This document shows, in pieces, positions 8,236 through 41,866 of a stretch of 64,000 bases of DNA. The notes beneath the pieces are model-generated. The model had not been told where the DNA came from. It ran no database searches and was given only the letters and a program-made list of their open reading frames with translations. Source of the stretch: Vibrio stylophorae (GTDB taxonomy: Bacteria > Pseudomonadota > Gammaproteobacteria > Enterobacterales > Vibrionaceae); contig NZ_CAKLDI010000001.1 in the NCBI RefSeq assembly GCF_921293875.1, forward strand, positions 2,109,915 through 2,173,914, written 5' to 3'. Every line of letters begins with the position of its first letter. The first letter of the stretch is position 1. The position numbers and the translations under genes are program-made.

Positions 8236-9273
8236 CTAGGCGACGCCGTTAACATCCAGTCCAGCGTTCAACATGTTAATCATCGCTTCAACATGGATCA
8301 AAGCACACATTTTCTCTTTGACCATGCCGGCTAGCCAAGGTCGTTTTCCTTCCGACTCGCGCCAGCGCACATCTTCTTTTACGAGAGTTTCGGTGCCCAT
8401 CAGTTTATCACTGGCGAGCCCCCATTTGCTGTCACCCAGCATTACAATATATTGATAATCTTCACGATGTTGATCATCAGTGATCTTATCTGGCATCACC
8501 CAGCGGGCTGTATCTACCACGTCGAGCTGTTGCTCTCTTGAGGTTTGCAAACCCAAATACCATGCAGGGCGACCTAGAAGAATATTGGTTTCAGCGAGTC
8601 GGTGAATGCCCCCTAAATTGTTCAGCGGCACAGCAAAGGTGACGCCAGCAATCAGGAAGTAAAGCACCTGAAACTCATAACCTGTTTCAATATTATGCCA
8701 ATCAGAATCCAAGGCTTTTTCAGCCGGTGCAAGCTCAGTTGCGACCTCAGTGTCCACTGCGATATCAACCGCGGTTGTCTCTAAGGCTTCAACAACTGTT
8801 TCCGCTTTAGTTTCAACTTCAGTTTCAACGACAGTATCGACCAGCGTCTCAACAGCCACTTCAGGCTCAGCAAGTTGCACTTGCGTTGCGGCGTCGTGGG
8901 CCGCTTCTTCAACCAGCGCGGCTTGCCAATCAGGATCGAGCTGATCCGAGAGCGTCTCGGTCTCAACCTTGGTTTCTGTTTCAGTTTTAGTTTCTGTTTC
9001 AACTGCCACGGCAAGCTGTGGCACCGTCTCTGTCGAGACTTGGCTAAGCAGTCGTTGCAGCTGAATTTGCTTATCGCTTTCAAGCTCTACATAGGGCTTA
9101 GCGCTCGCACTGACCGCAGCGGGCTGAGGTTGAACGGCAAGTTGAACCTCAGGCGGCACTTCAGACTCGGTCGGCATCTCAAGTTGAGCCGGTACCTCAT
9201 CTTCTTCCAGCAGCGCCATGAAGTAATCATCAAGCGCCTGCTCACTATTTAAAGGTGCCCGATTAGTGCTCAT
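8236..9273 (-). CDS. parP: ParP, CheW-like polar array protein
   Basis: 345 residues. The N-terminus (NSEQALDDYFMALLEEDE) is followed by a long low-complexity region dominated by Val-Glu-Thr repeats (about 90-185). The C-terminal part (about 200-340) is a CheW-like domain (FQVLYFLIAGVTFAVPLNNLGG...). This is the ParP architecture: the N-terminal region binds ParC and the C-terminal AIF domain integrates with CheA and receptors to hold arrays at the cell pole. It overlaps the parC end by 11 nt, as in Vibrio. Confidence 0.9.
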   Translation of the reverse strand: MSTNRAPLNSEQALDDYFMALLEEDEVPAQLEMPTESEVPPEVQLAVQPQPAAVSASAKPYVELESDKQIQLQRLLSQVSTETVPQLAVAVETETKTETETKVETETLSDQLDPDWQAALVEEAAHDAATQVQLAEPEVAVETLVDTVVETEVETKAETVVEALETTAVDIAVDTEVATELAPAEKALDSDWHNIETGYEFQVLYFLIAGVTFAVPLNNLGGIHRLAETNILLGRPAWYLGLQTSREQQLDVVDTARWVMPDKITDDQHREDYQYIVMLGDSKWGLASDKLMGTETLVKEDVRWRESEGKRPWLAGMVKEKMCALIHVEAMINMLNAGLDVNGVA

Positions 9274-10042
9274 CTTGCTCTAAGCGCTCCAGATAATTCA
9301 GTAGTGTCTTATAGGCAAAAACGCCGCGACAGCCCTTGGCATAAAGTGATGGCGGCATGTTTTTCAAGCTCGCATCACGGAATTTAGTATCGATTGGAAT
9401 GGCGGAAGCCCACACCTGCTCTTGAAAACTCTGTTTTAAAGACTGCAAAGTTTCTAGAGAAGCGCGCGTTCGCTTGTCATACATGGTCGGCACAATACAG
9501 ACTTTAAAAGGCGCAGGACGCGATTTTTGCATGATTTGCAAAGTGCGCATCATTCGCTCCAAACCTTTCATCGCCAAAAATTCCGTTTGTACCGGAATCA
9601 AAATACGACGACTCGCCGCCAAGGCGTTGACCATCATCACCCCCAAAATAGGTGGGCAATCGATGAGCACGTAGTCATATTCATCTTCAATGGTGGCCAG
9701 TGCTTTTTTCAGCACCAGCCCCATACCGCCCTTGGTTCCCATGACACGGTCAAGGGTCGCCAAGGACATATGCGCAGGAATCAAATCAATGCGATCATAC
9801 TTGGTTTGAATGATCAGCTTTTGTACTGCGTCGCGTGTCACTTCTGGCACTTGAAACAGGTCAAACAGACTTAATTTCAGCTCATCACTTTCATAGTTGA
9901 AATAAGTGGTGAGCGATGCATGAGGATCAGTATCAACCAACAACACGCGCTTTTTGCGTTCACTTAAAAGCCCCGCCAAAGAGACGGTTGTGGTGGTTTT
10001 CCCTACCCCACCTTTTTGGTTCGCGACACTCCAAACGATCAC
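9263..10042 (-). CDS. parC: ParC, ParA-like ATPase for polar chemotaxis arrays
   Basis: 259 residues. The deviant Walker A KGGVGKTTT (10-18), ILIPVQTEFLAMKGLER and the Walker B-type DCPP show a ParA/MinD-type ATPase. Next to parP, cheA and cheB, this is ParC, which recruits arrays to the cell pole and gives both daughters one. It starts with GTG sharing a base with the cheB stop (TAGTG); AGGAA lies 7 nt upstream, supporting that start. A plasmid or chromosome ParA is unlikely given the context. Confidence 0.93.
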   Translation of the reverse strand: MIVWSVANQKGGVGKTTTTVSLAGLLSERKKRVLLVDTDPHASLTTYFNYESDELKLSLFDLFQVPEVTRDAVQKLIIQTKYDRIDLIPAHMSLATLDRVMGTKGGMGLVLKKALATIEDEYDYVLIDCPPILGVMMVNALAASRRILIPVQTEFLAMKGLERMMRTLQIMQKSRPAPFKVCIVPTMYDKRTRASLETLQSLKQSFQEQVWASAIPIDTKFRDASLKNMPPSLYAKGCRGVFAYKTLLNYLERLEQDEH

Positions 10043-11248: not shown

Positions 11249-13468
11249 TTAGTGGGCGTAGCGCTTCAACAAGCTAGGAACGTCCAAAATCAAAGCGATA
11301 TGACCATCACTAGTGATGGTCGCCCCAGCCATACCTGGGGTTCCTTGGAGCAGGTTATCCAGTGGCTTAATCACCACCTCTTCCTGACCGATCAAGGAAT
11401 CGACCACAAAGCCGATACGTTGGTGACCGATTTGCACAATCACCACATGCCCTTGATCGCGGCTATGTTGACAACCTGATCTATCCAACCAATCTTGTAG
11501 ATAGAACAGTGGAATCGCCTTATCTCGCACAATAATGGTCAGTTGACCATCCACAGTGTTGGTTTTGGTTAAATCCAAATGGAAAATTTCGTTCACACTG
11601 GCCAAAGGCAGCGCAAATGGCTGTTGACCAATACCCACCATCAGCGTTGGCAAAATCGCCAAAGTCAGTGGCACTTTAATCGCAATAACGGTACCGCGAC
11701 CTAAACCTGAATCGATATTGATGGTGCCGTTCAACTGGCTAATGCCGGTTTTCACCACATCCATGCCAACGCCACGACCTGAGATATCTGAGATCTCTTT
11801 TTTAGTCGAAAAGCCCGGTGCAAAGATGAGATTGTAGGCTTCAGTGTCGCTTAAACGCGCCGCTGCATCGCTATCCATCAAGCCACGCTCAATCGCAATT
11901 GAGCGCAATTTATCTGGGTCCATACCGCCGCCATCATCAGAAATGGTCAGCAAGATGTGATCGCCTTCTTGTGACGCTGCAAGGGTCACCGTACCTTTAC
12001 GTGGTTTACCAGCTTTCTCACGGACATCTGGCATCTCGATGCCATGGTCAACGGAGTTGCGCACCAAGTGGACCAAAGGATCGGCCAAGGCCTCAACCAG
12101 GTTTTTATCCAAGTCGGTTTCTTCGCCGCGCAGTTCAAGACTGATCTCTTTATTCAAGCTACGCGCCAAATCACGAACCACGCGAGGGAAGCGGCCAAAC
12201 ACTTTTTTGATTGGCTGCATGCGGGTTTTCATCACCGCGCCTTGCAGATCAGCGGTCACCACATCTAGGTTGGCAACAGCTTTCGACATCTCTTCATCGT
12301 TGCTGTTCAGACCAAGGCTCACCAAGCGGTTGCGCACCAACACCAGCTCACCCACCATATTCATAATGGTATCGAGGGTTTGGGTATCCACACGCACAGT
12401 GGCTTCTGCTTGCGGTTTGGCTTTATCCGCTGCTTTTGCCGCAGGCGCTGCGGATGCAGCTGGTGCAGGCGTTGACGCAGGGACTGATTTCGCCGCTTCA
12501 ATTTTCTCAACCACAGCTTGCGCCGCAGCAAGGTTGGCAGAGGCCGGTTTGGTTGCTGCTTCTAACTCTTCTGCACTTGGGCCTTTACCCGCACCATGCA
12601 GTTCGTCCAGCAGCTTTTCAAACTCAGCATCGGTCATGATATCGCTATCGCCGCTGGCTGCGGGTGCTGCGGGTGCGACTGGCGCAGGTTCGCTGTGACC
12701 TGATGGGCCATTACCGGCACCATGCAGCTCATCAAGCAAACGTTCGAACTCATCATCAGTAATGTCACCGCTTTCGCTGATCACCGATGCTGCCGGCGCT
12801 GCAGGTGCAGCTGGCGCAGGTTCGCTATGAGCCGATGGGCCTTTACCGGCGCCATGGAGCTCATCCAATAGCTTTTCAAATTCGTCGTCAGTGATGTCAT
12901 CGACAGACTGGCCTGAAGTGATCTCTGCATGCGGCGCTGCTGAAGCGGCTGGCGCTTCAACATGAGTTTCAACGCTCGTTTCAACAACAGGCGCTGGCGC
13001 TTCGATGACAGGCTCAGGCTCGACAACAGGGGCTGGCGCACCGCCTCCCAACGCAGCTTCCGCTTGCTCTTGGGTCAGGCTGGCATCACTTAATTTGTGT
13101 AGCGCTTCTAGCAATTCAGCTGGCGCTGGCGACAGGGGTTCGCGCTGCTGCACCAATTCAAACATTGCATTGATGGTGTCTAGCGCTTGCAGAATCACAT
13201 CCATCAAGGTGGTTGTAACGCGGCGTTTGTCATTGCGCAGCAAGTCAAAGACGTTTTCTGCACCGTGACAAGCATCCACGAGCTCACCCAAGGAAAGAAA
13301 GCCTGCACCACCTTTTACGGTGTGGAAACCACGGAAAATTGCGTTTAGTAAATCGCGATCATCTGGACTTTGTTCAAGTTCCACCAGCTGCTCAGAAAGT
13401 TGCTCTAAGATTTCACCGGCTTCAATTAAAAAGTCCTGAAGAATATCTTCATCCACTTCGAAACTCAT
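11249..13468 (-). CDS. cheA: CheA, chemotaxis histidine kinase
   Basis: 739 residues. The P1 domain has phospho-His49 (FRGFHTVKGGAGF). A long linker replaces a classical P2 and holds three tandem copies of a 22-residue motif containing DEFEKLLDELHGAG (about 191-298), separated by Pro/Ala-rich spacers. After that come P3 dimerisation, the P4 ATPase with N-box (HLVRNSVDHGIE), G1 (DDGGGMD) and G2 (SGRGVGMDVVK), and the P5 CheW-like domain to the end. It phosphorylates CheY and CheB in response to receptors. It follows cheZ by 9 nt. Confidence 0.97.
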   Translation of the reverse strand: MSFEVDEDILQDFLIEAGEILEQLSEQLVELEQSPDDRDLLNAIFRGFHTVKGGAGFLSLGELVDACHGAENVFDLLRNDKRRVTTTLMDVILQALDTINAMFELVQQREPLSPAPAELLEALHKLSDASLTQEQAEAALGGGAPAPVVEPEPVIEAPAPVVETSVETHVEAPAASAAPHAEITSGQSVDDITDDEFEKLLDELHGAGKGPSAHSEPAPAAPAAPAASVISESGDITDDEFERLLDELHGAGNGPSGHSEPAPVAPAAPAASGDSDIMTDAEFEKLLDELHGAGKGPSAEELEAATKPASANLAAAQAVVEKIEAAKSVPASTPAPAASAAPAAKAADKAKPQAEATVRVDTQTLDTIMNMVGELVLVRNRLVSLGLNSNDEEMSKAVANLDVVTADLQGAVMKTRMQPIKKVFGRFPRVVRDLARSLNKEISLELRGEETDLDKNLVEALADPLVHLVRNSVDHGIEMPDVREKAGKPRKGTVTLAASQEGDHILLTISDDGGGMDPDKLRSIAIERGLMDSDAAARLSDTEAYNLIFAPGFSTKKEISDISGRGVGMDVVKTGISQLNGTINIDSGLGRGTVIAIKVPLTLAILPTLMVGIGQQPFALPLASVNEIFHLDLTKTNTVDGQLTIIVRDKAIPLFYLQDWLDRSGCQHSRDQGHVVIVQIGHQRIGFVVDSLIGQEEVVIKPLDNLLQGTPGMAGATITSDGHIALILDVPSLLKRYAH
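12575..12898 (-). repeat. Triplicated FliM/CheZ-like motif inside cheA
   Basis: Three in-frame copies of D-I-x-T-D-x-E-F-E-[KR]-L-L-D-E-L-H-G-A-G-x-G-P-S at CheA residues 191-212, 235-256 and 276-298, joined by spacers rich in Ala and Pro. The core resembles the N-terminus of FliM in this window (LTQDEIDALLHGV) and the C-terminus of CheZ (VDDLLSSLGF), both known CheY-binding peptides. Confidence 0.85.
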
Positions 13469-13477
13469 ACTATTCCC

Positions 13478-14191
13478 CTAGAACCCGAGACTTGATAGCA
13501 AGTCGTCGACATCATCCTGGCCATTGACCACATCCTGACGTTGATCCGGATGGATAATGGGCCCTTCTGCTTGCGCTGAGTCCACAGTGGGTTGCTCAAC
13601 CTGCTCAGGCTCAATACCAAAGGCTTTTAAAATCTCAACCAGCTGCTCTTCAACTTCATGAACCAAAACGATCACGCGGCGAATGGTTTGCCCCGTGAGA
13701 TCCTGAAAGTCCTGTGCCATCAAAATTTCAGTCAGTTGATGTTTCACTTCCCCGCTATCGCCCTCAATGTGCGTCAGCAGGTCTTCAACTTCGTGACATA
13801 GATTTTTAAATTCAGCTAGTTTTAAGTCGCCGCGCATCAGCTGATTCCAGCTAGGACGCACCTGACCAATGTGTTCCCCAAGTTGCTCTGCCATAGGAAG
13901 GCAGCGCTCAACGGCATCCATGGTACGGTTTGCCGCTTCTTCTGTTTTATCGATCACATAGGTCAAACGATCCCGAGCGTCTGGAATTTCATAGGTCGCC
14001 AAAGCGCCTAGTCTCGGATCAATTCGAAATTCAGCTAAAGAGTCATGAAGCTGACGCGTGATGCGCCCAACTTCGTGATAAATCGGCAGCGTACTTGCTT
14101 CAATAATTTCTCCAATCAATTGATTGGCTTGGCCCTGTTCACCCTGTTCTAACAAGGTAACTAGCTGTTGGGCCTGCTCGAGCGTTATCAT
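13478..14191 (-). CDS. cheZ: CheZ, CheY-P phosphatase
   Basis: 237 residues, long helical protein. The catalytic region MAQDFQDLTGQTIRR is present, with Asp164 and Gln168 matching E. coli Asp143 and Gln147. The C-terminus ends DDVDDLLSSLGF, the peptide that tethers CheY-P. It dephosphorylates CheY-P to shorten signals. It sits between cheY (37 nt) and cheA (9 nt). Confidence 0.96.
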   Translation of the reverse strand: MITLEQAQQLVTLLEQGEQGQANQLIGEIIEASTLPIYHEVGRITRQLHDSLAEFRIDPRLGALATYEIPDARDRLTYVIDKTEEAANRTMDAVERCLPMAEQLGEHIGQVRPSWNQLMRGDLKLAEFKNLCHEVEDLLTHIEGDSGEVKHQLTEILMAQDFQDLTGQTIRRVIVLVHEVEEQLVEILKAFGIEPEQVEQPTVDSAQAEGPIIHPDQRQDVVNGQDDVDDLLSSLGF

Positions 14192-14228: not shown

Positions 14229-14621
14229 TTACATACGCTCAAAAATTTTATCGAGCTTCTCTTTCAAGGTGGCTGCTGTAAATGGTTTCACGATATACCC
14301 GTTCACCCCGGCTTGCGCCGCTTCAATGATCTGTTCGCGTTTTGCTTCCGCGGTGATCATCAAGACAGGGAGATGTTTGAGGCTATCGTCAGCGCGAATA
14401 TGACGCAGCAGGTCGATGCCCTGCATGCCTGGCATATTCCAGTCGGTAACGACAAAATCAAATCCACCCTTGTTGAGCATAGGTAACGCTGTCAGGCCAT
14501 CATCCGCTTCATGGGTGTTGTTAAAACCCAAGTCACGAAGAAGGTTTTTGACGATACGACGCATTGTTGAGAAATCATCAACAATCAGGATTTTCATATT
14601 TTTATTCAAAGTTGCCTCCAC
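14229..14621 (-). CDS. cheY: CheY, motor response regulator
   Basis: 130 residues, single receiver domain. Acidic pair at 15-16 (IVDDF), phospho-acceptor Asp60 (VVTDWNMPG), Thr/Ser in MITAEA, and Lys in [10 protein letters not shown]. Phospho-CheY binds FliM and FliN to reverse the motor. I place the start at GTG 14621 because this N-terminal MEA...[12 protein letters not shown] extension matches Vibrio CheY. An ATG eight codons later is the alternative but lacks a ribosome-binding site. Confidence 0.96.
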
Positions 14622-23940: not shown

Positions 23941-24987
23941 TTAATCATTATCGAGCGGAATACTGTCGATAAGCTCTTCAGCGAGCCCATCATCCAAAAA
24001 GGCCAGATCGGTTTTTACCATTTCGGGCCGCTTCAATTTTTCTGTAATTTTGAGCGCAATATGATCGTTGCGCTGTCCCATCTTGGCGTGATAGGTCGGT
24101 AAATCTTCAACAAAGACGGTGATATTTTCAGGCATATCAATAGGGATAATATCGCCCGCCTGCAGTTCCATTAGATCGCGCAGTGCCAAGTCCATATCTA
24201 GCAGCTTGGCACGCAATGACACAGGCACATCCAAAATTTCATCGCGCAGCGCCATGCTCCAGCGCATGTCGGTATCCATCTTGTCACTTTGCACACCAGC
24301 ATCGAGCAATTCACGAATCGGCTCGACCATGGAGTACGGCATCACCACGTGGAAATCGCCGCCGCCGCCATCGAGTTCAATATGGAAAGAACTCACCACG
24401 ATCACTTCCGTGGGGCTGACAATGTTCGCCATGGTTGGGTTCACTTCAGAGTCAAGATACTCAAACTCAACCCCCATTACTGGCGACCAGGCTTCTTTGT
24501 AATCTTCAAACACCAACTTGAGTAGCATTTGAATAATGCGGCGCTCTGTTGGGGTAAATTCGCGACCTTCAATTTTGGCGTGGAATCGACCATCACCACC
24601 AAAGAAGTTCTCCACCAAAATAAACACCAAACGCGCTTCCATGGTGACCAAGGCGGTCCCCTTCAGCGGGCGAAAACGCACCATGTTTAAACTGGTGGGG
24701 ACATAGAGGGTATTTTGGTATTCACCAAATTTGAGCATCTGCACGCCATTGATCGACACCTCCGCTGTTTTACGCAGCATATTAAAGAGGCTAATGCGCA
24801 TATGCCGCGCGAAGCGTTCATTAATAAGCTCCAGCGTCGGCATGCGGCCACGCACAATGCGGTCTTGTGATGAAAAGTCAAAGGAGGTCGCACCATCATG
24901 TGATTCCTCAATGGTCTCTGTCTCATCAACATCATCGACCCCGTGCAGCAGGGCATCAATTTCGTCTTGGGTCAGCAGATCGCTCAC
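23941..24987 (-). CDS. fliM: FliM, motor switch protein
   Basis: 348 residues. The N-terminal CheY-P binding peptide is MSDLLTQDEIDALLHGV. The middle CheC-like domain includes FGGDGRFHAK, and the C-terminal SpoA domain includes VFVEDLPTYHAKMGQRNDHIALKI. The start is GTG at 24987 with AAGGT about 7 nt upstream. It sits between fliL (11 nt) and fliN (14 nt). Confidence 0.97.
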   Translation of the reverse strand: MSDLLTQDEIDALLHGVDDVDETETIEESHDGATSFDFSSQDRIVRGRMPTLELINERFARHMRISLFNMLRKTAEVSINGVQMLKFGEYQNTLYVPTSLNMVRFRPLKGTALVTMEARLVFILVENFFGGDGRFHAKIEGREFTPTERRIIQMLLKLVFEDYKEAWSPVMGVEFEYLDSEVNPTMANIVSPTEVIVVSSFHIELDGGGGDFHVVMPYSMVEPIRELLDAGVQSDKMDTDMRWSMALRDEILDVPVSLRAKLLDMDLALRDLMELQAGDIIPIDMPENITVFVEDLPTYHAKMGQRNDHIALKITEKLKRPEMVKTDLAFLDDGLAEELIDSIPLDND

Positions 24988-40379: not shown

Positions 40380-41507
40380 TTAGCCAAGAAGGCTAAGTGC
40401 TGTAGATGGTGCTTGTTTTGCCTGAGCAAGAATCGAAGTAGATGCTTGCTGTAGGATTTGATCCTTGGTCATCTTCGTGGTTTCTTTCGCGTAGTCCACA
40501 TCACGGATACGACCGTTAGATGCCGCTACGTTCTCTTGAACGTTTGCAAGGTTGCTTACAGCGTGGTCCAAACGGTTTTGGCTTGCACCTAGCTCTGAAC
40601 GGTGCGCATCGATGTAGCCCATTGCTGAGTCAAGGATACCCACAGCCATTTGCGCGCCGCCAACTGTACTTACGTCGATGTCAGCAACAGTTTTTGCTGC
40701 ACCAGCACCCATTGCCAGTGAACCTGCAAGTTTACCGCCAAAGGTTACTGTGCTTGAACCTGCGCCAGTAAACACTTGAAGGTTACCTTTGCCATCAACA
40801 GAAGCTTTTACTTTGTCAGTTTGACCGTTGATGTAAGTTGCTAGTTCTTCAATGTTGTCGCCAGCTTTAGCGTCAATTTGAAGGTCAACTGTTTTACCTT
40901 TTGCATCAGTAAACTTCATAGTCAAAGTTGCAGCTGCGCCGTCTACGGTCCAGTTTGCATCTTTGCCTTTCGTTGCAACATAGCCAGTACCGCCCATTTT
41001 TTCTTCGTCGGCACGGATGTTGTTGATTGAAATCATCATCGCCTCACCGGAATCAGAACCGATTTGGAATGATTTAGTTTGAAAAGAACCGTTCAATAGT
41101 TTCGCACCACCGAAAGAAGTTGTTTCGGCAATACGGTTCAATTCGTCTTGAAGCTGAACCACTTCGTCTTGGATTGACGCGCGGTCTTCGTCGCTGTTTG
41201 AGCCGTTCGCAGACTGTAGGGATAGGTCACGCATACGAGTGATAATGCTCGTTGCTTCGTCCATTGCACCTTCTGCAGTTTGCGCAATTGAGATACCGTC
41301 GTTGGCGTTACGCATTGCAACGTCCAAACCGCGGCTCTGTGCAGTCAAACGGTTAGAAATTTGTAGGCCAGCTGCGTCATCTTTTGCACTGTTGATGCGG
41401 TAACCTGAAGACAAGCGCTCCATTGAAGTATCAAGTTCATTGGTTGCCTTGTTAAGGTAACGCTGAGCGGTCATTGCTGGTACGTTAGTATTCACTGAAA
41501 CGGCCAT
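40380..41507 (-). CDS. flaC: Flagellin (second gene; sigma-28 type promoter)
   Basis: 375 residues. Conserved N-terminal D0/D1 ([19 protein letters not shown]) and C-terminal D1/D0 (ending [20 protein letters not shown]) flank a short variable middle. ATG 41507 is preferred over ATG 41513 because AGGAG is 8 nt upstream of it. By place next to flaG and its sigma-28 promoter it corresponds to FlaC of Vibrio; the letter is by synteny, not proof. Confidence 0.93.
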
Positions 41508-41588
41508 GGTCATATCTCCTTTGGCATATACTCTTGGCTTCGCCCAGCGTATCCGGGAAAACCAACCTGTTTATCTCTTACACCTTCT

Positions 41589-41792: not shown

Positions 41793-41866
41793 CGCAGGAA
41801 CGCAGGAACGCAGGAACGCAGGAACGCAGGAAGCGTAAAAAAGAAAGAGAAAGAGAAAGAGAAAGA
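41793..41866. repeat. Short tandem repeats between flagellin genes
   Basis: Five perfect copies of CGCAGGAA (41793-41832), then four perfect copies of GAAAGA (41843-41866). They lie between the flaA terminator and the sigma-28 promoter of the next flagellin. Such arrays are prone to copy-number change. Confidence 0.9.

Follow-up and report, generated by a model that had tools for sequence, protein, structure and literature searches.

Three FliM-like motifs in the predicted disordered linker of a Vibrio CheA suggest that a multivalent CheY-docking array may replace P2

In the survey by Berry, Andrianova and Zhulin (2023), roughly half of the CheAs were without a P2 domain and had an unstructured stretch between their Hpt and dimerization domains, and the authors concluded that P2 may be dispensable (PMC10542144). 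In a review and in a paper on P. putida, the CheAs of V. cholerae and P. putida are still described as having a P2 domain. For the P2-bearing CheA-F7, Ortega et al. (2020) reported that CheY states changed on the P2-facing surface upon recruitment to the kinase (PMC7184735). Vibrio CheA is described as having a localization and inheritance domain (LID) immediately ahead of P3, which binds ParP at its CheW-like AIF domain and reportedly occurs only in genomes that have both ParC and ParP (PMC7534058, PMC5706961).

We analyzed a 64,000-nt stretch of the Vibrio stylophorae genome (the window), whose open reading frames include a chemotaxis cluster in the order cheY, cheZ, cheA, cheB, parC, parP, cheW. 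A genome search identified the 739-aa CheA encoded there as the only one in the genome. It has the domains of a CheA histidine kinase, namely Hpt with HTVKGG (residues 8-100), H-kinase_dim (dimerization, 356-415), HATPase_c (463-602) and CheW (609-736). The gammaproteobacterial gene order, found in the window and in related loci, places it among the F6-type kinases, a class name that we apply by analogy with PMC7184735. The genes and the linker considered here are as follows.

11249..13468, minus strand: cheA, 739 aa, F6-type chemotaxis histidine kinase with P1, motif linker, P3, P4 and P5 (ORF and Pfam)
12404..13048, minus strand: Ala/Pro-rich linker joining P1 to P3, residues 141-355; AlphaFold2 predicts disorder interrupted by four short helices, three of them at the motifs
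14229..14621, minus strand: cheY, proposed ligand of the motifs (Response_reg; above the cut-off of the CheY equivalog model PRK10610)
8236..9273, minus strand: parP homologue with a CheW-like AIF domain, rival ligand (Pfam CheW at residues 202-333; adjoins parC)
9263..10042, minus strand: parC homologue, a ParA-like ATPase (AAA_31; genome search)

Elsewhere in the window, between two minus-strand flagellin genes, a perfect (CGCAGGAA)x5 repeat followed by an AAAGAG run occupies positions 41793-41866, about 280 bp upstream of the start of the flagellin gene at 40380-41513; it is possibly a slippage-prone repeat in the flagellin promoter region.

The Ala/Pro-rich linker carries three copies of the pattern I/M-T-D-[DA]-E-F-E-[KR]-L-L-D-E-L-H-G. 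An earlier, sequence-only reading had placed three copies within CheA residues 191-298, and they are found there.

12851..12895, minus strand: motif copy 1, ITDDEFEKLLDELHG, residues 192-206, mean column conservation 0.91
12719..12763, minus strand: motif copy 2, ITDDEFERLLDELHG, residues 236-250, mean column conservation 0.95
12593..12637, minus strand: motif copy 3, MTDAEFEKLLDELHG, residues 278-292, mean column conservation 0.88

The three 15-mers share 28 of 30 pairwise identities; when this linker was shuffled 2,000 times, the count never exceeded 17. The conservation values come from 37 aligned CheAs, in which P1 scored 0.84, P3 0.94 and most of the linker outside the motifs 0.28-0.42; apart from the motifs, nothing in the window CheA's linker is strongly conserved. 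The copies are near-identical as protein while their cores share 69-76% DNA identity, indicating that they are old and under protein-level selection. The same divergence rules out a recent tandem expansion, and the array was not reported by Tandem Repeats Finder. Copies 1 and 2 have part of their downstream spacer in common (AHSEPAPAAPAAPAAS and GHSEPAPVAPAAPAAS; 75% DNA identity, window 12651-12850), which points to a local duplication or conversion that left the copy number unchanged. Two Pfam families that gave matches on the repeats were rejected: SHOCT scored 20 bits against a cut-off of 27, and GemA, which scored 28 against 27 over the whole protein, had no single stretch that passed and was read as a repeat artefact.

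We then consider what is missing from this linker. The sequence-only reading had seen no classical P2 domain between P1 and P3, and Pfam, a PDB sequence search and AlphaFold2 all agree. The window CheA had no Pfam P2 or CheY-binding match, no PDB chain matched its residues 140-300, and the motif profile found no match in the PDB; 6s1k, a full-length CheA of E. coli size, matched P3-P5 and one further stretch, outside the motif region. Because the Pfam P2 models are insensitive, the AlphaFold2 result weighs most. Calculated for the window CheA with 36 homologues, it gave pLDDT values mostly below 50 over residues 143-361, with the disorder broken by helices at 194-204, 238-248 and 280-291, which are the motifs, and by another helix at 299-306. 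No P2 fold was predicted between P1 and P3, at the motifs or elsewhere in the linker. That F6 CheAs lack P2 is drawn from the window CheA, from its AlphaFold2 model and from linkers that we inspected. By sequence and predicted structure, the motif array stands in the place of P2.

Another class of CheA shows the reverse arrangement. The motif was absent in all of ten F7-type CheAs, several of which come from genomes that have an F6 CheA as well. Nine of the ten (loci L205-L208, L210, L141, L200, L202 and L203) have a conserved, folded-looking domain of about 85 aa at the P2 position, with the pattern W-x-I-x-F-x-P ... GNDP ... LG ... FxWV. Pfam and PDB sequence searches gave this domain no name, so that we call it P2-like by position and conservation only, and its profile failed to find the Enterobacteriaceae-like CheA; it may be P2. 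The motif in F6 CheAs and the P2-position domain in F7 CheAs are distributed in complementary fashion.

When copies were counted across Vibrionaceae and neighboring families, exactly three were found in 110 of 110 CheAs, of which 80 came from a scan in which two of the six seeds were motif peptides and 30 from a whole-protein search. The suggestion that copy number may vary among strains was consequently not borne out among these close CheAs, and variation was seen only across the class. Class-wide, 91 F6-type CheAs had 0-4 strict copies, with two copies in 52; when degenerate copies were allowed, 42 had three, 30 had two and 10 had four. Ten further matches, many of them from one large-genome family, mostly had one degenerate and three strict copies. 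In class- and phylum-level motif searches, strong matches occurred only in CheA-like frames of Gammaproteobacteria (44 of 115 and 62 of 348 genomes). The Enterobacteriaceae-like family f19, in which the best match to CheA is a distant one, yielded no strong match. The few weak matches outside CheA that we inspected, in a DNA-ligase-like protein and an unrelated frame, were due to chance.

In family f76, the F6-type CheA of locus L145 has a variant repeat, LPEGVDPDGEITDDEFEALLNQRD, present three times and lacking LHG, and that of locus L195 has a similar repeat present twice; no ParC or ParP ortholog was found for either. P. aeruginosa is described as lacking ParC/ParP-related genes (PMC12410967), yet most F6 clusters sampled (class loci L111-L204) carry a ParC homologue, and they usually have a CheW-like ParP homologue near cheB.

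The proposed function of the motif comes from its likeness to two peptides encoded nearby. The FliM N-terminus (LTQDEIDALLHGV) and the CheZ tail (DDVDDLLSSLGF) are present in the window as the sequence-only reading had quoted them.

24940..24975, minus strand: FliM N-terminal CheY-binding peptide, LTQDEIDALLHG, which of 2,029 ORFs gives the best match to the CheA-motif profile after CheA itself
13481..13516, minus strand: CheZ C-terminal CheY-binding tail, DDVDDLLSSLGF, a weaker match (rank 58-115 of 2,029 ORFs)

Using a 10-column profile of the CheA motif, which covers its ten-residue core, we found that the FliM N-terminus ranked first among the 2,028 ORFs besides CheA in 384 kb of the genome, in keeping with the closeness to FliM that had been claimed. 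A reciprocal FliM profile ranked CheA 6th of 2,029 ORFs, and a 13-column CheA-motif profile ranked FliM 4th. The full 23-column motif HMM, including the LHG extension, found only CheA in its own genome at E values up to 10, reaching neither FliM nor CheZ. Therefore, the likeness to FliM is good but confined to the core. The CheA motif has the FliM-type core [LI][ST]xxE[IV]DxLL and, according to AlphaFold2, also forms a helix within a flexible segment, as do FliM-type CheY-binding peptides. The claimed closeness to the CheZ tail was sustained in its acidic pattern, but the statistical likeness is weak, and the CheA motifs are internal rather than a DDLLxxLGF-like C-terminus.

The same rankings bear on whether the likeness to FliM could be a coincidence, with the motifs docking another partner (the receiver of CheB or CheV, or CheW) or an internal domain of CheA. 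Short amphipathic acidic helices are common, and CheB, CheW and usually CheZ are also encoded in the clusters. However, FliM was the top match of 2,028 ORFs, and in the AlphaFold2 model, read at the level of pLDDT and helices, the linker around the motifs was not ordered by any confident packing. We regard docking to these other partners as very improbable.

We favor, with moderate confidence, a mechanism whereby the CheA motifs form a multivalent CheY-docking array that replaces P2, as suggested by their sequence and predicted structure. The three motifs would act as short helical CheY-docking peptides along a disordered tether, doing the job of the folded P2 domain in E. coli CheA. Each FliM-like motif would bind the alpha4-beta5-alpha5 face of CheY and raise the local CheY concentration near the phospho-histidine of P1, and a CheA dimer would offer six sites. 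Phosphorylation or exchange would then let FliM at the motor, or the phosphatase CheZ, compete for the same CheY face, leading to release. The ligand, the surface bound, the valence and the release step are the parts of this mechanism that we infer.

A further comparison concerns the CheYs of motif-bearing clusters. Among the 112 of them with a readable surface segment, R92 is present in 100, Q94 in 111 and V103 in 110. Ortega et al. (2020) reported changes of precisely these states, on the P2-facing surface, upon recruitment of CheY to the P2-bearing CheA-F7 (PMC7184735). Their presence here fits a different docking element, though it is no proof of one.

Alternatively, the motifs could be the LID itself, binding the AIF domain of ParP and tying CheA and the chemoreceptor array to ParC at the pole. 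ParP binding is a published function that already maps to the motif linker in Vibrio, an assignment absent from the sequence-only reading, and the motifs lie in the linker before P3 when placed against the description in PMC7534058. Because strong conservation in that linker is limited to the motifs, the LID probably includes one or more of them. Moreover, ParC, usually accompanied by ParP, is found in most of the F6 clusters sampled. The ParP of the window itself begins with a short acidic hydrophobic N-terminus (NSEQALDDYFMALLEEDE), which scores weakly with the CheA-motif profile, and has a Thr/Glu-rich repetitive linker.

The motif is, however, not confined to genomes with ParC and ParP. 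In seven genomes with an F6 CheA, the best ParA matches had 33-37% identity and at most 148 bits, compared to 49-56% identity and at least 260 bits in genomes that have a ParC ortholog, and no ParP match was found in the same seven. Four of them (G303, G296, G315 and G446) retain one to four clear motif copies, with the call of absence weakest for G296, whose genome is 91% complete. Two others (G466 and G554) have the variant EFEALLNQR or one like EFELLLQMR, three and two times, respectively, and G318 has two degenerate copies. Since the motif persists in genomes in which neither a ParC nor a ParP ortholog was found, ParP binding cannot be its sole role, though it may be an added use. ParP binding also leaves the likeness to FliM unexplained. 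Altogether, we consider it unlikely that the motifs are simply the LID.

Such an added use would have the array dock CheY while, in lineages with ParC and ParP, ParP was also recruited to at least one copy, so that the two ligands compete. This arrangement would reconcile the published LID with the persistence of the motif where ParP is lacking, and the relaxed mean copy number is 2.72 at loci with ParC versus 2.26 at loci without it. The difference is, however, small and confounded by phylogeny, with some of the ParC-less loci truncated by contig ends, and we found no copy-specific signature tied to ParP. We judge this dual use to be a rather remote prospect in its own right. When it is counted together with CheY docking alone, CheY is likely to be a ligand of the motifs.

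Returning to the CheY-docking array, a P2-less CheA with about three FliM-like motifs, here and in most gammaproteobacteria sampled, suggests a different way of loading CheY. More tentatively, and with somewhat less than even confidence, the F6 kinase array may operate across Gammaproteobacteria, where kinase, motor and phosphatase would compete for one CheY face via related peptides. Each CheA dimer would then offer two to six or more sites, and the array of polar bacteria would additionally feed the pole-tethering network of ParP. Should one large group of P2-less CheAs have a conserved motif array instead, docking would have been re-engineered, not lost, and models of CheY loading, competition and gain would change in Pseudomonas, Shewanella and Vibrio-type systems. 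The P2 assignment in V. cholerae and P. putida CheA deserves re-examination. A short motif that can be altered by point mutations also provides a direct means to tell docking from pole tethering.

What would be new is that short peptides, and not a docking domain, hold CheY, and the motif strings were not found in print in the literature searched. Compared to the P2 or CheY-binding domain of E. coli and T. maritima, the array likewise lies flexibly tethered between P1 and P3 and has the same proposed role in CheY docking, but P2 is one folded domain whereas the linker of the window CheA is predicted to be disordered, with three short motifs that form helices. The FliM N-terminal peptide shares the core [LI][TS]x[DE]E[IF][DE]xLL in register and sits in a flexible segment as well; the CheA copies differ by having Phe for Ile and an invariant D-x-L-H-G after LL, and by being internal and repeated where FliM has one N-terminal copy. 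The CheZ tail shares the acidic amphipathic pattern DE[VF][DE]xLLxxL, but lacks LHG and occurs as one copy at the C-terminus. The LID of Vibrio CheA occupies the same linker just before P3 according to PMC7534058, but it is said to be confined to genomes with ParC and ParP, while the motif is not. Finally, in its main text, the survey of P2-less CheAs by Berry et al. (2023) reports no motif in the unstructured stretch, whereas the window CheA carries a conserved motif array there.
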